Source: Bolinopsis microptera (lineage: Eukaryota > Ctenophora > Tentaculata > Lobata > Bolinopsidae). Taken from it: a stretch of 64,000 nucleotides of DNA. Below, in pieces: positions 3,901-56,858 of the stretch. The stretch is from contig NC_087081.1 of assembly GCF_026151205.1 (NCBI RefSeq), positions 7,001,246-7,065,245 of the forward strand, written 5' to 3'. Each line of letters opens with the position of its first letter. The stretch's first letter is position 1. Both the position numbers and the translations under genes were made by a program. Under the pieces are notes generated by a model. The model was not told where the DNA came from and made no database searches. It saw only the letters and a list, made by a program, of their open reading frames with translations.

Positions 3901-4468
3901 GTAACGAAAACACTCAAACTTTCTTACTATATGGGCAATTTCACGTAAAGTAAATTACACTTTGCACAAAAATTTGGCCTTATTCTGACTCTCAAGCATT
4001 ACACAAACATAACAGAATCATGATAAATTGCATGAAACATCTCTTATGTACTCCACACACAGCTATATTAAGATTTTTACTCCAACTGCTATGGCTTTTG
4101 AGTGAGGCACGTTTGAAAATGTAAAGTAAATTACAGGGCACAAATTGACATTCCTGACCAACGTGTATTGAAATCTCATTTCGTGCCCAGGTGTGAGAGT
4201 AAACATTTAAATATTTTTCATGCACACTGGCAAATGTCTTGCCTGTACTGGAAAGGGTTTGTTTTGGTAAATGGTTAATAGCTGTGTTCTGTAGAAGCCT
4301 TTGTTCCTTGTAAAGTAAGTTACTCTTTTGTGTCAAGTAGTTTACACTGTTACACAATCCTTTGATTTTAACTGTTTAAAGCTGCCCCTTTGTCTTTAAT
4401 TCGTTTGCTAAGTGTATGAACTATGTAATATATGATTAATAATGATATATCAGTTTATCATTAGCCAA
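3901..4468. other. Gene-free stretch with recurring GTAAAGTAAATTAC motifs
   Basis: No exon is supported; a 121-codon open frame on the minus strand (3992-4357) shows no domain. The near-palindromic GTAAAGTAA(A/G)TTAC motif recurs near 3947, 4120 and 4311, with relatives near 5173, 5365-5405 and 5556. It may mark the edges of decayed elements. Confidence 0.4.
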
Positions 4469-4472
4469 TTAA

Positions 4473-5044
4473 GGGGGCCGGGGGGGCCTTCATCAAAATT
4501 TTCTCGAAATTGACTTTATAGTTGTTTCTAATAGAGGGGAGTGATATCTATCAGATGCTTTTGGTCCCATGGAAAAATATTGTTCCTAGACGAAATTATT
4601 ATCGGTCAAATGTCAGCGCTTATGTGTAATTGTATTGCGCGAGCGATTTTCAATTTTTGAAAATCTTGGACCTCAAAAAATCGTCAAAAAACGAGGTTCA
4701 AGATTTTCAAAATCGAATAAAATATGTTTAAAGGCCTATATCAAAATTCTGTTTGGCTCATCTCTTTTAAATTATCTCTAGAACATATCCTGAAAGTTTC
4801 AGGGTGATTGCTCAAAACATGTAGGAGAAAATAGATTTTTAGACTCGATTTTCAGGACACGTGATTGAAAATCGCTCGCGCAATACAATTACACATAAGT
4901 GCTGATCTTTGACCGACAATAATTTCGGCTAGGAATAATATTTTTCCATGGGACCAAAAGCATCTGATAAATATCACTCCCTTCTATCAGAAACAATTAA
5001 AAAGTCAATTTCGAGGGAATTTTGATGAAGACCCCCCGGCCCCC
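4473..5044. mobile_element. 572-bp MITE with ~190-bp terminal inverted repeats at TTAA
   Basis: The left end (GGGGGCCGGGGGGGCCTTC) and right end (GAAGACCCCCCGGCCCCC) are inverted copies, and similarity continues inward about 190 bp on each side (4473-4665 versus 4850-5044) with scattered differences. Both flanks show TTAA (4469-4472, 5045-5048), and the reconstructed empty site CCAATTAATTGG is a palindrome, so TTAA (piggyBac-type) or TA (mariner-type) duplication both fit. The centre holds a further hairpin near 4655-4710. No coding capacity: a non-autonomous element. Confidence 0.85.
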
Positions 5045-5048
5045 TTAA

Positions 5049-6050
5049 TTGGTTGATTGATCCACTGATTGGGTCCACAGTTAGCCCAGTTATACAGAGT
5101 AGGTAGGTGGGCGTAAATGTACGAATGTTTCCCAGCTCAAAAATTTGTGTTCAAGCAGGCCACTGGATTTTCTGTAAAGTAAAGTATTATTTATATTATA
5201 TTTTCGAAAAGTCAATTTTTAACCATTTTAAACCATTTTTATAGATTTCTTTAATGAAATTCTGACCAGAACCAATCTATTATCACTTTTAAATAACTTT
5301 TATTCTGTTTGACAATCGTTACTTGTTGTGTTTTACTACTATTACTGAATAAAAAGCATATGTGTAAATTACTTGACACGTAAATTACTTGACATGTAAC
5401 TTACTTGACGCTGGTATTGACATGATCTGATATCTATGGATCTAAATAAACAAGTACATTATGTCTTGACATCAGAGTTAGCTTGTTTTAGCAAGATTTC
5501 AGCAAGAAATAACATGAAATGTGGCCAGCAGAAAACTTTTTTGTTTTTTATGTATAGTAATTTACACTAAAAACAGGAGAAAGTAGAATAGCATTGCTCC
5601 GAATCTGCTTAAATTTTGAGTCCCAAATTTTGCATACAGCTTCAGTGAAGTGGTATGCACCTTTACAGATCAAGAATTAATGAATATTACAACAATCTCT
5701 TTTTAGTAAACAGCTTTTATTATAGAGTAGTTTTAGCCTGTAAAACATGACAATTTATGGGTATTTTGAAAACGCGATAACACAGAAACGAAGTGAGATA
5801 TTTATAAGCGGTTTTTTGTGTCTAACAGTTTATAATCTTCTCTTTCAGACTCCAATCAAAGCTAGTGCCATAACTGAAATTTATTTTTTTCCCTCCTTGT
5901 TCATGTTTCATGAAATTGCCCATATATATTATATAACTATTATTATCTAAAATACTGAAAGTTTAGAGAATTTCGCTCTGTCGTGAAACTGTTACACTCC
6001 TTAAATGTATAGTTGTTAAATATTGACTGATTGACATCTCTAGTAACGGT
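5049..6050. other. Gene-free AT-rich stretch
   Basis: No gene or RNA was recognised. Near 5365-5410 the phrase GTAAATTACTTGACA is repeated about three times with small changes. The open frame at 5747-5950 lacks any family signature. Confidence 0.45.
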
Positions 6051-6058
6051 CTTTACAA

Positions 6059-6502
6059 CCCCCCCCCCATCAACCCCATCAACCCCCCCATCAACCCCCC
6101 CCCCCCCCCATCAACCCCCCATCAACCCTCCCCCCATCAACCCCCCCATCAACCCCCCATCAACCCCCCATCAACCCCCTCAACCCCCCCCCCATCAACC
6201 CCCCCCATCAACCCCCCCCCATCAACCCCCCCATCAACCCTCCCCCCATCAACCCCCCCATCAACCCCCCATCAACCCCCCATCAACCCCCTCAACCCCC
6301 CCATCAACCCCCCCCCCATCAACCCTCCCCCCATCAACCCTCCCCCCATCAACCCCCCCATCAACCCCCCCATCAACCCCCCCCCCCCATCAACCCCCTC
6401 AACCCCCCCCCCCCATCAACCCCCTCAACCCCCCCCCATCAACCCCCTCAACCCCCCCCCCATCAACCCCCTCAACCCCCCCCCCATCAACCCCCTCAAC
6501 CC
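6059..6502. repeat. CCCCATCAA minisatellite, C-rich strand
   Basis: About 440 bp made of (A)CCCC(n)ATCAA and CCCCCTCAA units with variable C-runs of 4-12. One frame reads as a Pro/Ser/Thr-rich polypeptide without a stop, but this follows from the repeat composition and is not evidence for a gene. The opposite strand is G-rich with many G-runs, so G-quadruplex formation is possible. Confidence 0.9.
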
Positions 6503-9018
6503 ACCTGAAATATAGTATCGAATACCTTGTAACTGAGTAACTCCTTAAACGATATGCCAACAATTTTAACCATAAATAGCACGATTTAAATTACATACTC
6601 ACTCACTGACCACCATGCTCTCTTAAAGTCTCTCAATCAGCTGATATCACTGCCATTAGCTGCTCTCTGCGTTTACTTCTTACTCTTCACTGCACTTCAG
6701 TTCTTGCACTTCTCTTCTCTTCTTGCACTTCTCTTCTCTTCTTGCACTTCTCTTCTTGCACTGAATACATGCGCTTCTGATCGGTCACATACGATAGTTA
6801 TATATATTATATTATATAATAATATATAGTTATATTCTATATAGTTATATATATAATATTCTTATTATAATAGGTAATATTATATAAAGCTGCTGCTGAG
6901 CCAGAACCATCCATTTGATGCTGTGATATACAGTGATTGTTCTAACTCTGTGTGTGTGGGATTGTCCTCCTGGTAACACGACTCCTGGTAACTCCTGGTA
7001 ACTCCTGGTAACTCCTGGTAACATGACTCCCTAATATTATGCCCGTTATATTCTTCAGTGTTCTTGATGTGAGACTGAAGAGAGCTCTCGTTAACTTGAC
7101 GGGGCTTTCAATGATCATTCTTAACGTTTCTTTGTTCTTTACATTTTTGTTTTTTGTCTTTGTTTTTGTTCTTAATTCCTTGCGTTTTCGTAAAAAGACA
7201 TTTTTCAACTACTAAGCCTCAGTTTACCACTCCCTTACAACTGAGTATATCATCATTGGAAGTTTTATGTGTTTCCATTGTTATATACCCAGAAGTTGTA
7301 CGTGTTTCTGTTGTTATTATACAAAACAAAACATGTTTTATTGTTATATATACATAATATTATCACCTTTGTAAGCCTGAACTAAGGAATATAAAAGGTT
7401 AGCACTATGACCTGTAGTTAAGTGTCACGGTCAGTAGAAGTAGAACAATGCTTATTGGCGACTCACTGGCTGGGGAGAGAGACAACCTGGCTAACTCTTT
7501 TCAGGGAAACACCTCTCTTAGTTCTTTAACATCTTCTACTTCTAAACATGACTACAAGGCCTCTTAAACATCACTTTTTTTCTTCCTTTTTTTAATAATT
7601 TATTTATTTTTAAATGTTTTACAGAGAGGCTGGGCCTGGGTGGCCACTTTTCTAAGGCCTATAAAACACTATCATTAATAAATAATAAGCCTCCTACTAC
7701 TAATACTACTCTTACTACTAATACTACTAATACTATTATTATTAATGCTAATATTACCGCTCTAATTATATAAATATGTATAATGGTAGTTCACTGTCTG
7801 TATAACTACATATTTAACCTCATAGTAGTTAATAAATAAATAAAGTCAAATTCTATACAGCACTTTATCAGTAAATATTTGAGTCAGTTATTATATAGTT
7901 ATAAGGAATAACTATACTCTATAGATGATGCTGCAAAGGATCCAGTACATCAGATCGTTAGAATGTCAGTAACTTACACCCCACTGTAAACAACGTCCAT
8001 AAACCCCGTAAATAGTCGATATATTTCATTTAGATCATCCCCTCGATCTTAATATCTTGAGCAACCATACAGAGGTTTAGGTAGGTGACATGCATCGATA
8101 AGTATCCTAGTCCACTGAGTCCTTGAGATAAACGAATTTTTATAGGACCAAAATCCTTTACACTTTGTCGCATTAGATGGTAGGATTGTGCTGTTAGTCA
8201 CGTGTTATTGTTTATGATCCAGTACGTGTCTAAACATATTGCCGGACCTGCTGTTATCACAGATAAGGTAGTAGAGTACACAGGAAACATATATCTAGAT
8301 TATACCTTTCAGGGAGCACATACAAAACCAGCTAGATATATCAAAATATTATAGGGAACATAACAATACATAGTGTGATAAGATACCAAACTAAAATATG
8401 TCCTCAGCAGTCAATATATAATAGTCTCAGCAGTCTCAGCAGTCAATAAGTAGTCAATAAATAGTCTCAGCAGTCTCAGAAGTCAATATTATATAATAGT
8501 CTCAGCAGTCTCAATAGTCAATAAGTAGTCTCAGCAGTCTCATCAGTCTCAGTAGTCAGTGATTAGTCAGTAAATAGTATTAGTAAGTAGTCTCCGTAGT
8601 CAAAAGGTGTTCTGGCTACTGTTTTGGTGCTGCAATACGGCATAACTTTCTTAGGATCATTATAAAATCCAAAAACAAAAATCTAAAAATACATTATCAA
8701 TCAGCAAAAAAAGCAGTCCTGGCTATAATAAATTTCCTGCCCACTGTAATAAGTGCACCTAAAAATACATCATCTAAAAATACATCATCTAAAAAGAGTT
8801 TGCAAAAGAAGAGTTTTGTTCACTAAAGTGCCTGCCTGCTGCATCTAGTAAATATGCAGACCGTAGGGCACTGCTTGATATATCACGTGACGTGCTCTTA
8901 GAATTAGAATTATTATCGGGGATTGGTCACGTGATATTCGTTCTTGCAGCAACGTATCTAAAAATATCCTAAGTAAGGTAGGGAGTCAAAAAATCTCCCA
9001 AAGAAATTTCAACAGAGT
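6503..9018. other. Gene-free stretch with short tandem repeats
   Basis: No gene is supported. Small repeats include CTTGCACTTCTCTT units near 6700-6760, ACTCCTGGTA decamers near 6980-7022, TACTAC-type repeats near 7690-7745 and an AGTCTCAGCAGTCTCAGCAGTCAATA array near 8403-8610. A GGATTGGTCACGTGATAT segment near 8919-8936 resembles the CCAAT plus CACGTG combination seen elsewhere in the window. Confidence 0.5.
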
Positions 9019-9023
9019 GTGAA

Positions 9024-10986
9024 CCCCTCTAGCTCTCAAGAGAGCCAGCTTAGTTGTACTGGTTGTCTCCTGAGAACCTCTCTAGAGAGCCAGCTTAGTT
9101 GTACTGGTTGTCTCCTGAGAACCTCTCAAGAGAGCCAGCTTAGTTGTACTGGTTGTCTCCTGAGAACCCCTCAAGAGAGCCAGCTTAGTTATACTGGTTG
9201 TCTCCTGAGAACCCCTCTAGAGAGCCAGCTTAGTTATACTGGTTGTCTCCTGAGAACCTCTCTAGAGAGCCAGCTTAGTTGTACTGGTTGTCTCCTGAGA
9301 ACCTCTCTAGAGAGCCAGCTTAGTTGTACTGGTTGTCTCCTGAGAACCTCTCTAGAGAGCCAGCTTAGTTATACTGGTTGTCTCCTGAGAACCCCTCTAG
9401 AGAGCCAGCTTAGTTATACTGGTTGTCTCCTGAGAACCTCTCTAGAGAGCCAGCTTAGTTATACTGGTTGTCTCCTGAGAACCTCTCTAGAGAGCCAGCT
9501 TAGTTATACTGGTTGTCTCCTGAGAACCTCTCTAGAGAGCCAGCTTAGTTATACTGGTTGTCTCCTGAGAACCCCTCTAGAGAGCCAGCTTAGTTATACT
9601 GGTTGTCTCCTGAGAACCTCTCTAGAGAGCCAGCTTAGTTATACTGGTTGTCTCCTGAGAACCTCTCTAGAGAGCCAGCTTAGTTATACTGGTTGTCTCC
9701 TGAGAACCTCTCTAGAGAGCCAGCTTAGTTGTACTGGTTGTCTCCTGAGAACCTCTCTAGAGAGCCAGCTTAGTTGTACTGGTTGTCTCCTGAGAACCTC
9801 TCTAGAGAGCCAGCTTAGTTATACTGGTTGTCTCCTGAGAACCTCTCTAGAGAGCCAGCTTAGTTATACTGGTTGTCTCCTGAGAACCTCTCTAGAGAGC
9901 CAGCTTAGTTGTACTGGTTGTCTCCTGAGAACCTCTCTAGAGAGCCAGCTTAGTTGTACTGGTTGTCTCCTGAGAACCTCTCTTGATAGCCAGCTTAGTT
10001 GTACTGGTTGTCTCCTGAGAACCTCTCTAGAGAGCCAGCTTAGTTGTACTGGTTGTCTCCTGAGAACCCCTCTAGAGAGCCAGCTTAGTTATACTGGTTG
10101 TCTCCTGAGAACCCCTCTAGAGAGCCAGCTTAGTTGTACTGGTTGTCTCCTGAGAACCTCTCTAGAGAGCCAGCTTAGTTGTACTGGTTGTCTCCTGAGA
10201 ACCTCTCTTGATAGCCAGCTTAGTTGTACTGGTTGTCTCCTGAGAACCTCTCTAGAGAGCCAGCTTAGTTGTACTGGTTGTCTCCTGAGAACCTCTCTAG
10301 AGAGCCAGCTTAGTTGTACTGGTTGTCTCCTGAGAACCTCTCTAGAGAGCCAGCTTAGTTGTACTGGTTGTCTCCTGAGAACCTCTCTAGAGAGCCAGCT
10401 TAGTTGTACTGGTTGTCTCCTGAGAACCTCTCTAGAGAGCCAGCTTAGTTGTACTGGTTGTCTCCTGAGAACCTCTCTAGAGAGCCAGCTTAATTATACT
10501 GGTTGTCTCCTGAGAACCCCTCTAGAGAGCCAGCTTAGTTATACTGGTTGTCTCCTGAGAACCCCTCTAGAGAGCCAGCTTAGTTATACTGGTTGTCTCC
10601 TGAGAACCTCTCTAGAGAGCCAGCTTAGTTATACTGGTTGTCTCCTGAGAACCTCTCTAGAGAGCCAGCTTAGTTATACTGGTTGTCTCCTGAGAACCCC
10701 TCTAGAGAGCCAGCTTAGTTATACTGGTTGTCTCCTGAGAACCCCTCTAGAGAGCCAGCTTAGTTGTACTGGTTGTCTCCTGAGAACCTCTCTAGAGAGC
10801 CAGCTTAGTTGTACTGGTTGTCTCCTGAGAACCTCTCTAGAGAGCCAGCTTAGTTATACTGGTTGTCTCCTGAGAACCTCTCTAGAGAGCCAGCTTAGTT
10901 GTACTGGTTGTCTCCTGAGAACCTCTCTAGAGAGCCAGCTTAGTTATACTGGTTGTCTCCTGAGAACCCCTCTAGAGAGCCAGCTT
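9024..10986 (+). repeat. 45-bp minisatellite, about 43 units
   Basis: The unit is 45 bp (15 codons), for example CTAGAGAGCCAGCTTAG then TTGTACTGGTTGTCTCCTGAGAACCTCT. Because 45 is a multiple of three and one frame lacks stops, the array reads through as about 650 codons of a SLESQLSCTGCLLRT repeat. Variation is almost confined to two sites, TGT/TAT (Cys/Tyr) and TCT/CCT (Ser/Pro), plus two TTGATAGC and three early CAAGAGAGC variants. There is no upstream signal, splice site or homology, so I treat it as non-coding satellite rather than a gene. Confidence 0.92.
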
Positions 10987-11725: not shown

Positions 11726-11744
11726 AACATTTAGATGCTTCCGC

Positions 11745-14700
11745 CTCCTACTCTTCCTCCTCCTCCCCCTGGGTCTTCCTGATCTTCCTCAGTCCTCTTC
11801 CTCCTCCCCTCCTCAGTCCTCCTCCTACTCCTCCTCCTCGTCCTCAGTCCTCCTCATCAGTCCTCAACAGTCCTCCTCCTCCCCAGTCCTCCTCCTCCTC
11901 CTGAGTCCTACTCCTGGGTCCTCCTCCTGGGTCCTCCTCCTCCTCTTCATCCTCCTCCTCTTCCTCCTAAGTCCTCAGTCCTCATCAGTCCTCCTCCTCA
12001 TCCTTCTCCTCAGTCCTCCATCCTCCTCCTCAGTCCTCCCCCAGTCCCCCTCCTCCTCCTCCTCCTATTCAGTCCTCCTCCTCCTCCTCCTTCTCAGTCC
12101 TCCTCAGTCCTTCTCCTCCTCCTCCTCCTCTTCCCTCTCAGTCATCCTCCTCAGCCATCCTCCTCAGTCCTCCTCAGTCCTCCTCCTCAGTCCTCCTCCT
12201 CCTCCTCTTCATCCTCTTCCTCCTCGGTCCTCAGTCCTCCTCCTCCTGGGTCCTCCTCCTCATCCTTCTCATCAGTCCTCCTCCTCCCCAGTCCTCTCCC
12301 AGTCCTCCTCCTCCTCCTCCTCCTCCTCAGTTCTCCTCAGTCCTCCTTCTCATTTCTCCTGAGTCCTCCTCCTGAGTCCTCCTCCTCTTCCTTCTGAGTC
12401 CTCCTCCTGAGTCCTCCTCCTCCTCCCTCTCAGTCATCCTCCTCAGTCATCCTCCTCAGCCATCCTCCCCAGCCTTCCTCCTCAGCCATCCTCCTCAGTA
12501 CTCCTCAGTCCTCCTCCTTCTCAGTCATCGTCAGTCCTCCTCCTCAGTCCTCCTCAGTCCTCCTCCTCCTCCTGGGTCCTCCTCCTCCTCCTCCTCCTGG
12601 GTCCTGATCCTCCTGGGTCTTCCTGATCCTCCCCAGTCCTCTTCCTCCTCCCCTCCTCAGTCCTCCTCCTACTCTTCCTCCTCGTCCTCAGTCCTCCTCA
12701 TCAGTCCTCAACAGTTCTCCTCCTCCCCAGTCCTCCTCCTCCTCCTCCTCCTCAGTTCTCCTGAGTCCTCCTTCTCATTTCTCCTAAGTCCTCCTCCTGA
12801 GTCCTCCTCCTGAGTCCTCCTCCTCTTCCTTCTGAGTCCTCCTCCTGAGTCCTCCTCCTCCTCCCTCTCAGTCATCCTCCTCAGTCATCCTCCTCAGCCA
12901 TCCTCCCCAGCCATCCTCCTCAGCCATCCTCCTCAGTACTCCTCAGTCCTCCTCCTTTTCAGTCATCGTCAGTCCTCCTCCTCAGTCCTCCTCCTCCTCC
13001 CAGTCCTCCTCCTCCTCCTCCTCCTCCTCAGTTCTCCTCAGTCCTCCTTCTCATTTCTCCTGAGTCCTCCTCCTGAGTCCTCCTCCTCTTCCTTCTGAGT
13101 CCTCCTCCTGAGTCCTCCTCCTCCTCCCTCTCAGTCATCCTCCTCAGTCATCCTCCTCAGCCATCCTCCCCAGCCATCCTCCTCAGCCATCCTCCTCAGT
13201 ACTCCTCAGTCCTCCTCCTTCTCAGTCATCGTCAGTCCTCCTCCTCAGTCCTCCTCAGTCCTCCTCCTCCTCCTGGGTCCTCCTCCTCCTCCTCCTCCTG
13301 GGTCCTCCTGGGTCTTCCTGATCCTCCCCAGTCCTCTTCCTCCTCCCCTCCTCAGTCCTCCTCCTACTCTTCCTCCTCGTCCTCAGTCCTCCTCATCAGT
13401 CCTCAACAGTTCTCCTCCTCCCCAGTCCTCCTCCTCCTCCTCCTCCTCAGTTCTCCTGAGTCCTCCTTCTCATTTCTCCTAAGTCCTCCTCCTGAGTCCT
13501 CCTCCTGAGTCCTCCTCCTCTTCCTTCTGAGTCCTCCTCCTGAGTCCTCCTCCTCCTCCCTCTCAGTCATCCTCCTCAGTCATCCTCCTCAGCCATCCTC
13601 CCCAGCCATCCTCCTCAGCCATCCTCCTCAGTACTCCTCAGTCCTCCTCCTTTTCAGTCATCGTCAGTCCTCCTCCTCAGTCCTCCTCCTCCTCCTGGGT
13701 CCTCCTCCTCCTCCTCCTCCTCCTGGGTCCTCCTGGGTCTTCCTGATCCTCCCCAGTCCTCTTCCTCCTCCCCTCCTCAGTCTTCCTCCTACTCTTCCTC
13801 CTCGTCCTCAGTCCTCCTCATCAGTCCTCAACAGTTCTCCTCCTCCCCAGTCCTCCTCCTCCTCCTCCTCAGTTCTCCTCAGTCCTCCTTCTCATTTCTC
13901 CTAAGTCCTCCTCTTGAGTCCTCCTCCTGAGTCCTCCTCCTCTTCCTTCTGAGTCCTCCTCCTGAGTCCTCCTCCTCCTCCCTCTCAGTCATCCTCCTCA
14001 GCCATCCTCCCCAGCCATCCGATCCTCCTCAGCCATCCTCCTCAGTACTCCTCTGTCCTCCTCCTTCTCAGTCATCGTCAGTCCTCCTCCTCAGTCCTCC
14101 TCAGTCCTCCTCCTCCTCCTGGGTCCTCCTCCTCCTCCTCCTCCTGGGTCCTCCTGGGTCTTCCTGATCCTCCCCAGTCCTCTTCCTCCTCCCCTCCTCA
14201 GTCCTCCTCCTACTCTTCCTCCTCGTCCTCAGTCCTCCTCATCAGTCCTCAACAGTTCTCCTCCTCCCCAGTCCTCCTCCTCCTCCTCCTCCTCAGTTCT
14301 CCTCAGTCCTCCTTCTCATTTCTCCTAAGTCCTCCTCCTGAGTCCTCCTCCTGAGTCCTCCTCCTCTTCCTTCTGAGTCCTCCTCCTGAGTCCTCCTCCT
14401 CCTCCCTCTCAGTCATCCTCCTCAGTCATCCTCCTCAGCCATCCTCCCCAGCCATCCTCCTCAGCCATCCTCCTCAGTACTCCTCAGTCCTCCTCCTTCT
14501 CAGTCATCGTCAGTCCTCCTCCTCAGTCCTCCTCAGTTCTCCTCAGTTCTCCTTCTCATTTCTCCTAAGTCCTCCTCCGGAGTCCTCCTCCTCTTCCTTC
14601 TGAGTCCTCCTCCTGAGTCCTCCTCCTCCTCCCGCTCAGTCATCCTCCTCAGTCATCCTCCTCAGCCATCCTCCCCAGCCATCCTCCTCAGCCATCCTCC

Positions 14701-15350
14701 TCAGTACTCCTCAGTCCTCCTCCTTCTCAGTCATCGTCAGTCCTCCTCCTCAGTCCTCCTCAGTCCTCCTCCTCCTCCTGGGTCCTCCTCCTCCTCCTCC
14801 TCCTCCTGGGTCCTCCTGGGTCTTCCTGATCCTCCCCAGTCCTCTTCCTCCTCCCCTCCTCAGTCCTCCTCCTACTCTTCCTCCTCGTCCTCAGTCCTCC
14901 TCATCAGTCCTCAATAGTTCTCCTCCTCCCCAGTCCTCCTCCTCCTCCTGGGGCCTTTTCCTGGGTCCTCCTCCTGGGTCCTCCTCCTCCTGGGTCCTCC
15001 TTCTCCTCCTCAGTCCTTCTCCTCCTCAGTCCTCTTCCTCCTCTTCCTCCTCCTCCTCCCTCTCAGTCATCCTCCTCAGCCATCCTCCTCAGCCATCCTC
15101 CTCAGTCCTCCTCTTTCTCAGTCCTCCTCAGTCCTCCTCCTGAGTCCTCCTCCTCCTGAGTCATCCTCCTCAGTTCTCCTCCTCCTCCTCCTAGGTCCTC
15201 CTTCTGGGTCCTCCTCCTCCTCCTCCTCCTGGGTCTTCCTGATCCTTCTCCTCCCTCTCAGTCATCCTCCTCAGTCATCCTCCTCAGCCATCCTCCTCAG
15301 CCATCCTTCTCAGCCATCCTCCTCGGTACTCTTCAGTACTCTTCAGTCCT
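11745..15350. repeat. 3.6-kb TCCTCC pyrimidine array with higher-order structure
   Basis: Nearly pure TCC/TCCTCAG/TCCTGGG/AGCCATCC words. A landmark GGGTCTTCCTGATC recurs near 11771, 12615, 13310, 13735, 14156 and 14818, giving higher-order periods of about 422, 660-695 and 846 bp. Open frames across it (such as a Ser/Leu/Pro-rich one at 11583-12362) are composition artefacts. The strand bias makes the minus strand almost all purine plus short interruptions. Confidence 0.92.
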
Positions 15351-34980: not shown

Positions 34981-35978
34981 TGCACCAGGTTCACACTGCA
35001 CAGTTACCATGTTCCTGACCTCGTCTCCAGGTGCACACTGCACAGTTACCATGTTCCTGACCTCGTCTCCAGGTGCACACTGAACAGTCTCCATGTTCCT
35101 GACCTCGTCACCAGGTGATACTGCACAGTCTCCATGTTCCTGATCTCGTCTCCAGTTCACACTGCACAGTCTCCATGTTCCTGACCTAGTCTCCAAGTGC
35201 ACACTGCACAGTCTCCATGTTCCTGACCTCGTCTCCAGGTTCACACTGCACAGTCTCTATGTTCTTGACCTCGTCTCCAGGTTCACACTGCACAGTCTCC
35301 ATGTTCCTGACCTCGTCTCCAGGTTCACACTGCACAGTCTCCATGTTCCTGACCTCGTCACCAGGTTCACAATGCACAGTCTCCATGTTCCTGACCTCGT
35401 CACCAGGTGATACTGCACAGTCTCCATGTTCCTGATCTCGTCTCCAGTTCACACTGCACAGTCTCCATGTTCCTGACCTAGTCTCCAAGTGCACACTGCA
35501 CAGTCTCCATGTTCCTGACCTCGTCTCCAGGTTCACACTGCACAGTCTCCATGTTCTTGACCTCGTCTCCAGGTTCACACTGCACAGTCTCCATGTTCCT
35601 GACCTCGTCTCCAGGTTCACACTGCACAGTCTCCATGTTCCTGACCTCGTCTCCAGGTTCACACTGCACAGTCTCCATGTTCATAACCTCGTCTCCAGGT
35701 TCACACTGCACAGTCTCCATGTTCCTGACCTCGTCTCTAGGTGCACACTGCACAGTCTCCATGTTCCTGACCTCGTCACCAGGTTCACAATGCACAGTCT
35801 CCATGTTCCTGACCTCGTCTCTAGGTTCACACTTCCAAGTCTCCATGTTTATGACCTCGTCTCTAGGTTCACACTGCACAGTCTCCATGTTCCTGACCTC
35901 GTCTCCAGGTGCACACTGCACAGTCTCCATGTTCCTGACCTCGTCACCAGGTGCACACTGCACAGTCTCCATGTTCCT
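34981..35978 (-). repeat. 42-bp minisatellite, about 24 units, half inside the receptor ORF
   Basis: Minus-strand unit: GTCAGGAACATGGAGACTG, TGCAGTGTGAACCTGGAGACGAG, that is the 14 codons RNMETVQCEPGDEV. Units at 35481-35978 are all exactly 42 bp and stay in the receptor frame; units outside the ORF (34981-35477) include 41-bp units that break the frame near 35114, 35152, 35406 and 35444. A block of seven units is duplicated with a 292-bp period (compare 35114 with 35406). The plus strand also stays open (MFLTSSPGSHCTVS). Confidence 0.93.
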
Positions 35979-38288
35979 GACCGCGATCATGTTCACCGAC
36001 CATATCCACCCTGCCAATAGGTAACCAACAGCCTTTTTGTATAGGTCGCTATAGAATAAGGGATTCAGAAAACTGTTGCCTGGGATGACCACCAGAGCGA
36101 ACACCTCAAAGACTGAAGGTGGTACTGGTTGTTTGGAAATGAGCTGGTAATAGACTGTTGCTATGATGAAGGGTATCCATGCTATGAGTTGACTTCCGAT
36201 CATAAGAGCTACTTTTAGTGCTAGAGATCGTGTAATGTCCACCTTTTGTGCTTCTTGTAGAACCGCAACACGTGCTTTACTCTTTCTATCTTCCAGCAAT
36301 ATTTTGGTGTATGTTACAAGTACTGTGACCAACAGTACTGCCAGAGTTGTGCAGTATAGAAGTTTGTAGATCTGATAAGATTCCTGGAGTTTGAAGATGT
36401 TGTGGACACATAATCCGGTGTTACCGTAGTAACCTATCTCTTCACTATCGAATATGCTTCCCTTGGAAGTCGTGTTTCGGAGCTTTTCCAGCATGGCGTT
36501 TGTGTTAGTTTCCGTAGAAAATGCACCCTCGTACATTATTTTAATTTTAGGTAGGTCGATAGGATTCTTGCTAAAAAATGGATTTTCATCAAGATGAGTG
36601 AAAAATATTTCCGTCCTAAAAATATCCTGTACAGCAGAAATAGATAGGAGCGGAAAAATAGCATGAGCTACATTTAGGAGAAGACCTAAAGCGGATCCTA
36701 AGACGACCATCCTTGTTTTTATTTCCCAAACCATACTGGTGCAATTCAGCCATCTGATCACACTAACAGATGCGACAGTTAACAAGGAGCCATGGGAGGA
36801 TACAGAGAAGAGCACACCAAGACTAGAGCACGATATGCTGGCTCGCCACTTTCTCTCCAACAAGCAGTAGTCGCCTTTGAATCGGAGCACTGTATCGGCT
36901 ATAACGATACAGCACAGATATAATCCCATCAGCAGATCGTAGAAGAATATTTGGAGACGGAAAGTTCTGTCAATTCGACCGGTCTTTGAATCCTTTTGGG
37001 AGCGATAGCATTTGTATCCCTCTACAGAGTTGATGATGACGATGAAGAGGCCCATAAAAATTGTGACTACTAGAACCGGTATGGATCGAATAAGGAACTT
37101 TGAGGAGGACAAACTTCCCAGGTCACATGTCCCACATTCATCACTACCGTCAGCACAATCCTTCACATGATCACATACTTTGTCAGGATCAACCCACTCT
37201 GCTGTTGAGTTTGGGCTGCAATAGAACCTGCCCGGACATCCAATTTCATCTGCCCCATTTTTACAGTCTTGCTTTTCATCACACAATGCTGTTACGTGGA
37301 AAGACTCTGTTCCAGATCTAAACGGATCTTTCTCACAGTCAAAAACGAAGTCGCTCTCTGACCATGAATCACTAAATACGTGATCACAAAATTGTACCCA
37401 ATTTTCCACCACGAAGTCTGTTTCGTTAGTGCAGTTATATTTGCAATAAGATGACACGAAATTTATTGGATCCTCACGCATTGATGACATAAATGACTGG
37501 TAGTTATGTCGGTATTGTCTAAGACACGAGTACAAGGGAGACATTTTATCAGGATCCCGAAAAGCCTCCTCACATTTATCAGCGTCACTCTTATCTGGAA
37601 TAGTACAATTCAAATTAGTTGACAGGCTACCCAGGCACAATACAGCAGGCAAACAAATGGGAGTGCTGCTGATTAGCGGGCAAGATATCTTCACAGAATC
37701 TTCACAGTAACATTCATCAGACCCATCAATGCAGTCCTGGGTACCATCACATAGACCGTCGAACGAGATGCAGCCTGAGCCGTCAAAGCAGTAGAAAACT
37801 TCAGTCAAGTTATTTTTGCAGCCACACTCATCAGTGAGACACTGGGACACACCATCACAGAGATTCTTATCAGGCAGAGAACAGGTCCATACTGCATCTT
37901 CATCACTTGCAATCTCATCGACATAATCTGTGGGGTCAATCTCTCGGAAATCACTTGAAATCTCATCGACATAATCTGTGGGGTCAATCTCTCGGACGTG
38001 GCCTTGGTAAGGGTCGAAGTTGAACCGACATATTGTAGAACTATTCCCTAGTTCTTTGGCCGGTTTATGATTATCATAATATCCAGGAAACATGAACAGC
38101 ATTCGAGAATATTGGAAGCATTTTGTTATTATCTCTGTGTCGCTCATGGGCAAATAGGGATGCTGTCCGTTATACTTCGCAAAATCAACTGTAAACTTTC
38201 TCCCCTGAGGACCAGTGCCCGGGACTTGAAATGGAAAGAGCGACAGAAGAAGCAGCAAGAAGACACCCCAAGATGGAATATCCCTCAT
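35478..38288 (-). CDS. LDLa-module, relaxin/LGR-type 7TM receptor with minisatellite-encoded tail
   Basis: Single-exon gene, 936 residues, plasma-membrane receptor. A signal peptide (about 1-27, GVFLLLLLSLFPF) is followed by a 16-residue duplication (REIDPTDYVDEI twice) and four LDL-receptor class A-like modules near 135-160, 166-195, 320-352 and 354-387, with CDGTQDCIDGSDEC and CDHVKDCADGSDEC calcium-cage signatures; the first and third are imperfect. The 7TM core spans about 394-766. TM2-TM3 (FFYDLLMGLYLCCIVIADTV, then FKGDYCLLERKW) most resembles relaxin-family/LGR receptors, and TM7 ends with NPLFY (NPxxY). No leucine-rich repeats are present. The usual E/DRY-type motif after TM3 reads VIRW, lacking the acidic residue. 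Residues 771-936 are about twelve copies of a 14-residue repeat from the minisatellite, ending where a unit mutated GAG to TAG. Ligand unknown. Confidence 0.93.
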   Translation of the reverse strand: MRDIPSWGVFLLLLLSLFPFQVPGTGPQGRKFTVDFAKYNGQHPYLPMSDTEIITKCFQYSRMLFMFPGYYDNHKPAKELGNSSTICRFNFDPYQGHVREIDPTDYVDEISSDFREIDPTDYVDEIASDEDAVWTCSLPDKNLCDGVSQCLTDECGCKNNLTEVFYCFDGSGCISFDGLCDGTQDCIDGSDECYCEDSVKISCPLISSTPICLPAVLCLGSLSTNLNCTIPDKSDADKCEEAFRDPDKMSPLYSCLRQYRHNYQSFMSSMREDPINFVSSYCKYNCTNETDFVVENWVQFCDHVFSDSWSESDFVFDCEKDPFRSGTESFHVTALCDEKQDCKNGADEIGCPGRFYCSPNSTAEWVDPDKVCDHVKDCADGSDECGTCDLGSLSSSKFLIRSIPVLVVTIFMGLFIVIINSVEGYKCYRSQKDSKTGRIDRTFRLQIFFYDLLMGLYLCCIVIADTVLRFKGDYCLLERKWRASISCSSLGVLFSVSSHGSLLTVASVSVIRWLNCTSMVWEIKTRMVVLGSALGLLLNVAHAIFPLLSISAVQDIFRTEIFFTHLDENPFFSKNPIDLPKIKIMYEGAFSTETNTNAMLEKLRNTTSKGSIFDSEEIGYYGNTGLCVHNIFKLQESYQIYKLLYCTTLAVLLVTVLVTYTKILLEDRKSKARVAVLQEAQKVDITRSLALKVALMIGSQLIAWIPFIIATVYYQLISKQPVPPSVFEVFALVVIPGNSFLNPLFYSDLYKKAVGYLLAGWIWSVNMIAVRNMETVQCAPGDEVRNMETVQCAPGDEVRNMETVQCEPRDEVINMETWKCEPRDEVRNMETVHCEPGDEVRNMETVQCAPRDEVRNMETVQCEPGDEVMNMETVQCEPGDEVRNMETVQCEPGDEVRNMETVQCEPGDEVKNMETVQCEPGDEVRNMETVQCALGD

Positions 38289-38975: not shown

Positions 38976-39192
38976 GGTATCCTAGGAACTTTCTTGAACT
39001 TTTAACAGGTACCCCTCCTCATTTAACCCTCGTCCCTCGATTAAGTTTCCTATTATTCGGCTGAGTCGACCGAGGAGATTACATAGATCCAATGGATCCT
39101 TAGCTACTCCCCAGACTAGGTGACACTGGGATTCGAACCCTGAACCTTCTGCGCAGAAGGCGGATGCTCTAACCAATAGGCCACCTAGCCCC
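38976..39192 (-). mobile_element. tRNA-derived SINE
   Basis: On the minus strand the 5' part (39192 down to about 39115) has pol III internal promoter boxes: an A-box-like TGGCCTATTGG, and a B box GGTTCGAATCC 30-40 bp later. It can be drawn only as an imperfect cloverleaf (possible TCT anticodon loop, mismatched acceptor), so it is a SINE head and not a working tRNA gene. A ~130-bp tRNA-unrelated body follows (TCCATTGGATC, GGTCGACTCAGCCG) to about 38980. The LTR element has inserted 5 bp beyond its head. Confidence 0.7.
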
Positions 39193-53300: not shown

Positions 53301-55120
53301 TTACTATATATAAAGCAAGACGATATATAAAGATATATACAAATTGAAACGCGAATCAAATAGGTAATAATTATTTTAGTCTCTTGAGTCTCGACACCAC
53401 TTTATGGTTAGACGGGTTCCTGCAAGTTCAAATACAGAGTGGGAGTTAGTAAAAGTAAAATGTTAATGTTAACAACAGGATAGGGCTCCGATATTCTAAG
53501 AATAAGAACTAAGAAGCAACAACTACGGCACAGTTGGGACTTTGGTCTTGGACATTGGATAATAAACTTAAATGAGCCAAATATACTTACTTTGATACTG
53601 TAATGAGGTTTAGCCAGAATGTCAGGGCCATCGTACATCACGTACACCACCCGAATGATGAAAATATTTTACCATATTATACCAAAGAGCAAACCCCGAC
53701 TACATTGCATGTTATTAGAAGGCGTCCCGCATTTCTCCACGAAGAGCAGAAACGGCAGCTGCAAGATTGAAAATAATATATCAAACTATCAAACTCTGAC
53801 ACGTACAAAACCAGCCGATCATCATTGCTCAATTAACAGCTGTTAGTTAACTTGAAGTAATAGTGAATTGACGAAATTGCCATCTGATTACGACAATGCG
53901 CGCATCTTGAGAAGTTGAGATATATCAGTAAAGCCTGGGGATTGGGGAAGTGATGGCTGCAGATGAAAGTTAGTAATAATCTAAGCTGATAGATTACTGA
54001 CTTACTATAATTAGTGTCAAAACATTGATAATCCTTTAAAAATGTCCGTTCAATTTGGCTAATTTTATAATTACATTGCAATAGAAAACATTATTGGATA
54101 TCGTTTGCAACTTTTTCTGAGTATTTTTACGCGATCAAACATGATAACATGGATGGAGATGAAGATATATACAAATTACCAAGGATTTGGCGTCACACCA
54201 CAAAAACAATATCTTTCTAAGTTTTCTTTTACAATATTTAGGAATTTGGGAATTAATTATATTTGAATCGACAAATTTATCTCGAAATATCGTGACACTT
54301 TCATACACGAGAGAGAACATAATGGTTGTGCTGAGTGGGTCAATGAAGCTGGAGTAATAATATGTTCCCGTAAACTTGTGCAGTCGTGGACCTTATCTTG
54401 CAGTTTTGTGATTTCTTCCATCTGTAATAAACTATTTTATGTTATTGTAAAAGGTTGAGGGAAAGCCACGAAGTTACAACACTGATCAATATGCATGGGA
54501 AAACGTTGTATGCGCCTAAGATGAGAAGTACGTACCGTTTCCGGCTTAAAGTACGTAATACGGTACAAGGTTTTTTATCAGTACGTACCGTACAACCACT
54601 TTAAAGTACGACATTTTTCTGAAAAAAACGGTGTCCGCTTTTTACCTTATTTGTATAACTATATTGTTGTAAAATTGGCAGGTATGTATGCAATTTTCGA
54701 ACCACGATTTTGGTGCCAGTGAATGCTAAAGTCGAATTAAACAATTTTCAAGTCAATAAATAAATTTTAATAACTGCAATTATACTCAATAGGAGTACGT
54801 ACACTGTACAGTCATACAGTCTAATGATGGAAATAAGAATGCGGCGACATAATAAGTTTAGGTGCCCGTAGCGCCATTTCAAGTGTTCCTGTTAGTGTTA
54901 TTATTTTGTCAGTGATGTAGTGCATTCCTTGAGCCGTGGGAACCATTAAGATGTAGTGTCAGTGACATAAATATGGTGCACGTGTCTTGTAATAGTTAAA
55001 GTTTAATAGTTTAGGCCTCAAAAATTTGAGCAGTGTGAGAATTTCAATTTTTGTTTTTTTGTGTTCGTATAGTTTGTGGTGTGTTTAATATAACGTCAGT
55101 TTAAGATACTACACTAAGTT
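53301..55120. other. Gene-poor stretch with dispersed repeats
   Basis: 53336-53430 is the inverted partner of 2814-2906. 53938-53998 repeats 52938-52998 (GGGGAAGTGATGGCTG...AAGCTGATAGATTACT). GTACGTACCGT words recur at 54529-54592. Minus-strand pieces near 53605-53650 (YVMYDGPDILAKPHYSIK before GTAAGT) and near 53690-53770 are open between possible splice sites but could not be joined into a gene. Confidence 0.45.
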
Positions 55121-55762
55121 TCATGTCATCGGCACACGAGCTGCATGAGCAGCCCTACCGGACACAAAAATAAAATATATATCCACCAGCGTGCGCTTTT
55201 TCGCATAGCGGGCTCTCACCAGCCCGCTGTCAAAGGGCCCGATATCTCTACAGCCCGCTCATGATATAGCCCGCTAACAAGTGACATTTAATTTGACCAG
55301 TAGCAATATAGCCCGGAGTTCTCTAAAATATTTTCAGTTTCTGTATCGTCTCCATGTGAAATTCCTTATTACACTGACTATATTATATACATTTTATTTT
55401 TGTGTCCGGTAGGGCTGCTCATGCAGCTCGTGAGCAGACGACATGATACTTTGATATATATCAAAGTTATTATAACACACTACATGATAATACACATCAG
55501 CACTATAATCCCCCTATATTATTGATATTCATCGTCACTGACATAATACATTCATTATTCCCACGGCCCAGGAATGCAGTGCATCTCCAGCCCCTATATA
55601 CGACACAGCCCTTTATGATTGGCTTACATTGAACACGTGACGTGTTACCATGGTTACTAAAATTAGTGGCGACCTTTTTCTATAGTTGACTTTTATACAA
55701 GCTCCATTGTTTATTTATAAAATTATATATTAACTGTAATACGCCCGCTGGTGGATATAATC

Positions 55763-55934
55763 CACATCACCTCGACCCGCGGGCGGAAAAATCGTATAGC
55801 ACTCGGGCCCGATGGGCCCTCCGTGCTATACGAAAATATGTCCTCCTCGGGCTAGCGCCCTCGGGGACATATGAAATATTGCACGCGCGTGCGCGTGCAA
55901 TATTTTGTTCCGCCCACGAGTCTCCGGTGATATG
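55763..55934. other. Cloverleaf-like hairpin cluster, copy 1
   Basis: An outer stem pairs CATCACCTCGACCCGCGGGCGGAA (55765-55788) with TTCCGCCCACGAG...GGTGATATG (55908-55934). Inside are three hairpins in a row: 55793-55832 (CGTATAGCAC / GTGCTATACG), 55836-55872 (ATATGTCC / GGACATAT with inner GGGC/GCCC) and 55875-55904 (AATATTGCACGCGC / GCGCGTGCAATATT, 2-base loop). Arms and linkers use the whole segment. No tRNA A or B box is apparent. Confidence 0.75.
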
Positions 55935-56523
55935 TATATATATCCACCAGCGTGCGCTTTTTCGCATAGCGGGCTCTCACCAGCCCGCTGTCAAAGGGCC
56001 CGATATCTCTACAGCCCGCTCATGATATAGCCCGCTAACAAGTGACATTTAATTTGACCAGTAGCAATATAGCCCGGAGTTCTCTAAAATATTTTCAGTT
56101 TCTGTATCGTCTCCATGTGAAATTCCTTATTACACTGACTATATTATATACATTTTATTTTTGTGTCCGGTAGGGCTGCTCATGCAGCTCGTGAGCAGAT
56201 GACATGATACTTTGATATATATCAAAGTTATTATAACACACTACATGATAATACACATCAGCACTATAATCCCCCTATATTATTGATATTCATCGTCACT
56301 GACATAATACATTCATTATTCCCACGGCCCAGGAATGCAGTGCATCTCCAGCCCCTATATACGACACAGCCCTTTATGATTGGCTTACATTGAACACGTG
56401 ACGTGTTACCATGGTTACTACAATTAGTGGCGACCTTTTTCTATAGTTGACTTTTATACAAGCTCCATTGTTTATTTATAAAATTATATATTAACTGTAA
56501 TACGCCCGCTGGTGGATATAATC

Positions 56524-56695
56524 CACATCACCTCGACCCGCGGGCGGAAAAATCGTATAGCACTCGGGCCCGATGGGCCCTCCGTGCTATACGAAAATAT
56601 GTCCTCCTCGGGCTAGCGCCCTCGGGGACATATGAAATATTGCACGCGCGTGCGCGTGCAATATTTTGTTCCGCCCGCGAGTCTCCGGTGATATG
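56524..56695. other. Cloverleaf-like hairpin cluster, copy 2
   Basis: Same arrangement 761 bp downstream. The outer-stem base that reads CCCACGAG in copy 1 is CCCGCGAG here, which improves pairing with the CCGCGGGCGG side. All three inner hairpins are kept. Confidence 0.75.
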
Positions 56696-56858
56696 TATAT
56701 ATATATCTCCGGGCTATATTATTATATCGCCCGATGGTATAGCGGGCTCCCGCTATATCAGCGGGCTGTTACAGCGGACCGGGATATATCATGTCTTCTA
56801 ACTAGCGGGCTGCGCGGGCCTGCTGGCGCAAATATAGCCTGCTGGTGGATATACTATG

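Follow-up and report, generated by a model that had tools for sequence, protein, structure and literature searches.

Among described mobile elements, those closest to the one presented here are the Cryptons, the animal members of which were surveyed, reportedly by Kojima and Jurka, and the Helitron2 or Helentron elements, whose asymmetric repeats are said to have been described by Bao and Jurka; IS200/IS605 elements, which employ an enzyme of a different type (Y1 HUH), are a further point of comparison. For Cryptons, departure as circles and insertion by the tyrosine recombinase have been proposed, by analogy only (PMC3212892). The parts of that survey on which we draw report short direct terminal repeats of 4-6 bp in fungal and stramenopile Cryptons and state that none were found in animal Cryptons; the CryptonA and CryptonI groups are characterized by a DUF3504-related tyrosine recombinase and by abundant short non-autonomous derivatives that keep the ends of the coding element, both features being shared by the elements described below (PMC3212892). 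In Helitron2 and Helentron elements, as presented in the relevant sections of PMC3627910, an asymmetric inverted repeat has its 3′ copy just upstream of the 3′ terminal hairpin, compensatory changes have been reported at these ends too, and terminal hairpins are mentioned as important for transposition in IS200/IS605 elements, a likeness to the ends studied here.

Folded recombination sites are known from bacteria. According to the passages of PMC2727003 used here, integron attC sites pair their end boxes (R″, R′) on one strand, keep conserved unpaired bases, can have a branched terminal structure and are recombined by a tyrosine recombinase; in their layout they resemble the structure discussed below, from which they differ in being bacterial, cassette-borne and recombined with attI by IntI through the bottom strand only. 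The excerpts of PMC9345347 at hand describe SE-6945 as representing tyrosine-recombinase elements that form a circle from one strand, likewise comparable, yet these are bacterial and attC-like imperfect inverted repeats were undetected at their attB, attL and attR sites.

The structure examined in our study lies in a 64,000-nt stretch of the Bolinopsis microptera genome, referred to as the window (C10:7001246-7065245 of the 264.65-Mb genome), and is very probably the 3′ terminal part of a Crypton-type DNA transposon. Positions 55178-56706 hold two 761-bp units (55178-55938 and 55939-56699) in head-to-tail orientation, each terminating in an outer stem with three hairpins, so that the cloverleaf makes up only the last ~200 bp of a larger element. 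The features are as follows (window coordinates):

55178..55938, plus strand: family-A element copy 1, non-autonomous, 761 bp, starting TATATCC... and ending at the junction with copy 2 (761-bp period, same ends elsewhere)
55939..56706, plus strand: family-A element copy 2, head-to-tail tandem, including the terminal TA-rich core (761-bp period, same ends elsewhere)
55178..55195, plus strand: 5′ terminus of copy 1, TATATCCACCAGCGTGCG; copy 2 opens identically at 55939
55178..55357, plus strand: 5′ subterminal region with three forward and one reverse CCCGCT motif (mononucleotide-shuffle mean 0.07)
55742..55759, plus strand: inverted repeat of the 5′ end within copy 1, subterminal and immediately preceding the cloverleaf, CGCCCGCTGGTGGATATA; over 18 nt its complementarity to 55939-55956 is 94%
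56503..56520, plus strand: the corresponding inverted 5′-end sequence within copy 2, likewise subterminal (inverted-repeat pair)
55766..55931, plus strand: cloverleaf copy 1, three hairpins in an outer stem (RNA and DNA folds, covariation; one stem mismatch, at 55916)
55792..55833, plus strand: hairpin 1 of copy 1 (folds with RNA and DNA parameters)
55836..55872, plus strand: hairpin 2 of copy 1, with the conserved tip CTCGGGC-loop-GCCCTCG at 55846-55863
55874..55905, plus strand: hairpin 3 of copy 1, 15-bp arms with 2 nt between them
56527..56692, plus strand: cloverleaf copy 2, hairpins at 56553-56594, 56597-56633 and 56635-56666, tip motif at 56607-56624
55926..55947, plus strand: junction of copies 1 and 2, GGTGATATGTATATATATCCAC, imperfect inverted arms around a TA-rich core
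56705..56853, minus strand: 5′ part of an older family-B element, host of the tandem pair (relatives L026-L039)
55116..55174, minus strand: continuation of the host family-B element across the insertion (67-nt inverted pairs, 93-94% complementary)

A preliminary description had reported the outer stem with three hairpins in two copies, and both copies were found where it placed them, 761 bp apart. The description of the hairpins as perfect needs correction for hairpins 1 and 2, which both contain internal loops, that of hairpin 2 being a conserved TC/TC. The described difference in the outer stem corresponds to A at 55916 in copy 1 and G at 56677 in copy 2, which pairs better, and the A is a mutation of copy 1, because G occupies this position in the other 33 of 34 rows of 3′ ends, drawn from overlapping loci with some places counted more than once. 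Folding, proposed there as a check, bore the structure out: as single-stranded DNA, copy 1 (55742-55956) reached -75.3 kcal/mol (z = -13.6) and copy 2 (56500-56720) z = -10.8, with none of 200 dinucleotide shuffles as good in either case. With RNA parameters the end of copy 2 (56503-56704) is predicted to form an outer stem of at least 10 pairs with exactly three branches of at least 9 pairs, a shape reached by 4 of 300 shuffles.

Family-A copies elsewhere in the genome start with TATATCCACC and end with ...GGTGATATGTATATATAT, in unrelated flanks. A 17-mer from the 5′ end occurs at 212 genome places (109 + 103) with at most one mismatch and one from the 3′ end at 134 places exactly, the backward controls giving 0 for both. 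Junctions that were read include head-to-tail, head-to-head and tail-to-tail joins, located at TA-rich cores. The tandem pair of the window is itself nested in an older family-B relative on the minus strand, and the empty site is preserved in the close relative L026 as AATAAA-ATATATATAT-CTCC. Between the same landmarks the filled site measures 1532 nt and the empty one 10 nt, a gain of exactly 2 × 761 at this one site, which is what would be expected from insertion of a circle; the same sum would be given equally by a transposase with target duplication, if the tandems arose by unequal exchange. Terminal repeats are TATAT-like at both ends in family A, TTATAA with TTATAA or TTGTAA in family E, and TATAA in the one family-F copy that has both ends, the target repeat and the element's own sequence being inseparable in all three. 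Such TATAT- or TATAA-like repeats at both ends would distinguish these elements from animal Cryptons as characterized in the portions of PMC3212892 consulted, where no terminal repeats were found, and so do the subterminal inverted copy of the 5′ end and the conserved terminal cloverleaf or hairpin. A stretch of ~67 bp (GTGTCCGGTAGGGCTGCTCATGCAGCTCGTG...) within the family-A copies (55385-55451) and the host family-B element (55116-55182) is 93-94% alike, more than the remaining interiors of the two.

A 1.6-kb variant (L017, L015) has mainly the 5′ 177 bp and the 3′ ~200 bp in common with the window unit. Possible coding elements between family-A ends were fetched as L013-L017, L040, L042 and L043. 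Several were discarded: L014 contains no reading frame of 150 codons, L015 and L017 represent the 1.6-kb variant, L040 and L042 are copies enlarged by other repeats, and in L013 the reverse-transcriptase-like and other frames lie between two separate 761-bp copies. In L015, two near-identical frames judged by eye to be reverse-transcriptase-like with GIY-YIG stand back to back (5608-7792). Regional divergence of family A (5′ 0.69%, middle 1.57%, 3′ 0.43%) was set aside as evidence because many copies had been collected through a match to their 3′ end.

In regard to coding relatives, L041 (4.1 kb) has ends in common with the window unit (96.9% alike over 194 bp and 98.0% alike over 199 bp), in the manner of a Crypton and its non-autonomous copies. 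Its recombinase gene is split into pieces, with Phage_integrase scoring 29.1 bits (cut-off 27.1) and DUF3504 below its cut-off. The last coding piece of L041 matches seven genome places; all except C6:5988003 were fetched, and in five of these six the recombinase is followed by the cloverleaf (L041, L060, two in L061, and L062), L041 having been found through its ends. In L063, which also carries the family-A/C recombinase, no cloverleaf was found. L062, a 3.4-kb element of family C, resembles the window unit at its 5′ end (69% over 141 bp) and 3′ end (84% over 204 bp) and has a predicted 534-aa recombinase in four exons with GT-AG borders, scoring 42.5 bits for DUF3504 (cut-off 29.7) and 28.4 bits for Phage_integrase (cut-off 27.1). 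DUF3504 scores amount to 78.3 bits in L065, 59.0 in L069 (family E) and 44.1 in L072 (family F), so that these three and L062 all encode the DUF3504-related tyrosine recombinase typical of Cryptons. Against solved structures, with E up to 10, the sole match of the L062 protein was a weak one to QRICH1 (E = 0.054), which the cited portion of PMC3212892 lists among Crypton-derived genes. Between families the recombinases are 26-46% identical. Judged by eye, family D seems to have the whole catalytic tetrad R-H-R-Y; the His of HxxR appears as Arg in families C and E, at a gapped part of the alignment, and as Lys in family F, and the other tetrad residues seem present in C and E.

From these sequence comparisons, assignment of the element to the known Crypton type is well supported, and within that type it may be CryptonA-like. 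The earlier statement that no named family has this design therefore falls for the element. It stands for the end, inasmuch as the animal-Crypton survey, in the passages used here, describes Cryptons without terminal repeats, and folded Crypton ends were not found in the literature searched (titles, starts of abstracts, top results). A Crypton-type transposon with a conserved folded end is neither an ordinary element nor a new kind of element. By eye, the recombinases of families A and C end in ~20 hydrophobic residues resembling a membrane tail anchor, odd for a DNA recombinase (L062 3730-4090; L041 773-1093, minus strand). In family D, direct repeats of ~90 bp, 93-99% alike, flank the recombinase gene inside the element (L065 1073-1159 and 2946-3032; L066 1057-1146 and 2928-3017), and in L061 (4540-4650) a long AT-rich (TA)n tract joins two family-C elements in head-to-head orientation.

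The preservation of the shape was followed in 26 ends of families A, B and C. Places covering less than 80% of the query, including the fetched family-B ends L057 and L059, were dropped first; 75 places were reduced to 38 distinct ones and to 26 after those at least 98.5% alike had been dropped, and the final rows comprise 25 of these (without L002, a near-copy of L001) and L062, which is close to L061. A fold of the gapped alignment by RNAalifold joined hairpin 1 to hairpin 3; pairs were instead taken from a single folded family-A sequence, which biases their counts towards family A. Over 66 pairs, 90.7% of 1582 cells are paired, and 89 cells are changed on both sides, compared with 33.1 ± 5.3 in shuffles (reached by 0 of 500) and 4-29 in slid-partner controls. 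Compensatory changes in all four stems, which the preliminary description had named as support for a functional fold, were indeed found. They affect the outer stem (columns 33-209 and 23-223, for example), the base of hairpin 1 (45-112), hairpin 2 (119-155) and hairpin 3 (165-198, 166-197, 171-192). The events are few because the three families are related. Two of the measures are weak: 12 pairs show changes on both sides, only mildly high, as 38 of 500 shuffles reach that number, and further pair types number 24 against 25.8 in shuffles, 472 of 500 reaching 24. Parts of hairpins are lost in several copies, e.g., L018, L034, L054, L056 and L058. That the cloverleaf shape is under selection can nevertheless be held with high confidence.

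A comparable layout recurs in further families, recovered through the 14 DUF3504 matches of the genome, 11 of which were fetched. Family E (L069, L070; 2.4 kb) starts with TTATAAACCCCTCCGGG and has an exact inverted 17-mer 195 nt from the 3′ end, followed by an outer stem with three hairpins (DNA fold z = -11.9, 0 of 200 shuffles as good); its end was matched at 40 scored places of 235 candidates. Family F (L072) has a layout like that of E with an imperfect inverted copy (z = -9.3), and in family D (L065, L066) the inverted copy is an exact 13-mer, 83 nt away from the end, and the structure consists of a single long hairpin (z = -8.4). The inverted copy of the 5′ end before the structure is thus exact over 13-17 nt in L041 (A), L030 (B, over 17 nt), L065 (D) and L069 (E), and imperfect in L062 (C) and L072 (F). 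One end each of A, B, C, E and F fits an outer stem of at least 10 pairs with exactly three branches of at least 9, as do 4, 8, 3, 3 and 4 of 300 shuffles, respectively. At E ≤ 0.1, the ends of A, B and C had no similarity to those of E or F; a segment of 82 nt is 70.7% alike between E and F, and 28 nt at a hairpin tip are common to D and F. Furthermore, the first 180 nt of A, B, C, E and F contain CCCGCT/AGCGGG 2-5 times, compared with 0.04-0.10 in shuffles, and the motif is absent from that region of family D. Such conservation of shape across several families suggests that the elements may be cut and joined as folded DNA, like integron cassettes.

The families are also linked by the hairpin tip, a TC/TC internal loop below a GC-rich apex (C-TC-GKGC-loop-GCMC-TC-G), carried by hairpin 2 of A, C, E, F and most of B and by the single hairpin of D. 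The motif CTCG-KGC-loop-GCM-CTCG was found at 379 genome places, versus 8 for the backward control, and twice in the window, versus 0 in 100 window shuffles. Family F, with its longer apical stem, escapes this count because the pattern allows only loops of 3-5 nt, and the tip in L030 (B) is one base off. The motif lies downstream in six of the 11 fetched DUF3504 matches; in the other five it was not found (L067 and L071, which are interrupted copies, L068, and L073 and L074, which form family G). Of six rare forms of the motif (L076-L081), four belong to old, poorly folding relatives of family E and one (L080) to a relative of family D; L077 matches no known end and folds differently. In L074, strongly folded direct repeats (14-174 and 4433-4603), 90% alike and ~4.4 kb apart, flank another DUF3504 gene, of family G.

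In regard to the strand that might be used, the TC/TC of the tip is unpaired on the top strand and has GA/GA as its counterpart on the bottom strand, and G-A pairs in tandem form stably in DNA. At the ends of A, B, C and D (six of eight ends), folding of the bottom strand is more favourable by 0.9-6.7 kcal/mol, with no such advantage in E (+1.0) or F (+0.1). Over all 66 pairs, A-C mismatches on the top strand outnumber G-T ones, the G-U wobbles of RNA, by 34 to 18, and by 23 to 13 when five pairs are left out. Together, these observations lean weakly to the bottom strand and away from an RNA of the coding strand, and the conservation of the TC/TC (GA/GA) mismatches suggests that one strand, perhaps the bottom one, is read.

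On balance, we slightly favour a Crypton variant whose end is a folded recombination site resembling integron attC. In such a model the recombinase would join both ends into a circle, setting the 5′ end beside the 3′ terminal structure (...GTATATATAT joined to CCACC...), and the junction at 55926..55947 would be the sequence carried by the circular form and may be read as its recombination site. On one strand, the subterminal copy (R′) would pair with the 5′ end (R) and the cloverleaf would close the stem, so that the paired R′/R arms and the TA-rich core would together form the site of the recombinase. In the window, the subterminal inverted copy and the neighbouring 5′ end are predicted to form one long stem across the cloverleaf (-131.7 kcal/mol, as RNA), and by prediction the attC hallmark of a one-strand fold with paired end boxes and conserved unpaired bases is present. 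Exchange at a short TA-rich target would insert the circle and leave direct repeats resembling TATAT, and insertion at the end of another copy would produce tandem, head-to-head and tail-to-tail arrays. We infer the circle, the transposition and the contact between recombinase and DNA from sequence; likewise, recombination of a folded strand is proven for attC, in the cited part of that work, and for these elements we infer it. That the folded strand itself may be the substrate is tentative, falling somewhat short of an even chance, and the hairpins might instead function in excision, replication or silencing. A wider proposal is more speculative again: animal Cryptons might recombine through a folded single strand, the cloverleaf and the end pairing forming an attC-like site read on one strand, and hence could move through single-stranded DNA and gain copies during replication. 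If true, eukaryotes would have arrived independently at an equivalent of integron recombination, and the multiplication of a tyrosine-recombinase transposon that lacks reverse transcriptase would be explained.

Alternatively, the elements could use an ordinary double-stranded Crypton site, with the cloverleaf acting as a cruciform or replication-linked hairpin that aids excision or blocks nucleases and is not a substrate. We consider this rather unlikely: recombinase and ends do go together, the circle junction resembles a normal site with short inverted arms around a TA core, and the folds of E and F lack strand preference, yet the exact inverted copy of the 5′ end before the structure (A, B, D, E) and the conserved unpaired TC/TC of the tip would both be left unexplained. 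Growth of palindromic repeats in repeat-rich DNA, yielding hairpins as a functionless by-product, fits the abundance of tandem repeats in the window and the loss of hairpin parts in some copies; the preservation of the shape through paired changes, its recurrence in E and F, and a tip motif seen 379 times against 8 make it extremely improbable.

Two further explanations were weighed. Rolling-circle movement of the Helitron2/Helentron type, with the recombinase genes as passengers or resolvases, would account for the inverted 5′-end copy upstream of the 3′ hairpin, which is found here and corresponds to the asymmetric terminal inverted repeats of Helitron2 as outlined in the pages of PMC3627910 considered, and the genome does hold 41 matches to the Helitron Rep domain (PF14214). 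However, the Helitron counterpart has a Rep-helicase, whereas here the coding copies carry a tyrosine recombinase between their ends and the three-hairpin cloverleaf terminates A, B, C, E and F; several distinct recombinase families are each paired with their own ends, none of the 41 Rep matches lies inside the fetched coding elements, and by eye none lies near a family-A 5′ end in the right orientation among 100 listed of the 212 places. The tip motif is also absent from one Helitron locus, 9.9 kb between two Rep copies with element ends unmapped. A Helitron origin had been our first idea, given the asymmetric inverted repeats and tandem copies; it was dropped since the coding relatives carry a tyrosine recombinase, and we regard it as quite improbable. 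Action as RNA, e.g., in stabilizing the recombinase mRNA from its 3′ end or in supplying small RNAs, is slightly less credible again. In L062 and L041 the cloverleaf does follow the gene on its 3′ side, in the coding strand, and folds strongly with RNA parameters, but non-coding copies retain it, it immediately adjoins the end of the transposon, it shows no preference for coding-strand wobbles (18 GT/TG against 34 AC/CA, or 13 against 23 when five pairs are left out) and it matches no Rfam family at the cut-off. Accordingly, of the two possibilities raised in the preliminary description, that of a multi-arm terminal structure such as a transposition hairpin survives as a transposon end, and that of a structured RNA is not supported. 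The sole Rfam match of the window is a tRNA elsewhere (39118-39190, minus strand), with 31.5 bits just above the cut-off of 29.

The conserved folded end and the common tip motif provide a handle for defining Crypton boundaries and for tests of circle formation, and the folded end opens the question of whether folded DNA can be a substrate for a tyrosine recombinase of eukaryotes. Vertebrate genes such as ZMYM2-4, QRICH1 and KCTD1 derive from Crypton recombinases, as stated in the portion of PMC3212892 used here, and Crypton termini are described as similar to human Eulor repeats in the part of PMC5753468 considered; the function of the ends may therefore bear on those too.

Other features of the window include a zinc-finger reading frame and, on the minus strand (35478-38288), a frame that matches LDL-receptor A and, below threshold, a 7-transmembrane domain; it continues into a 42-bp minisatellite (34985-35982), by which it would be extended with a long repetitive tail. 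Long pyrimidine-rich tandem arrays with TCCTCAG- and CCCCCCATCAA-like repeats and strong strand skew occupy 11740-15298 and 6062-6495, and a 45-bp tandem array of 43 copies (97%) at 9033-10986 lies inside a frame open for 691 codons.
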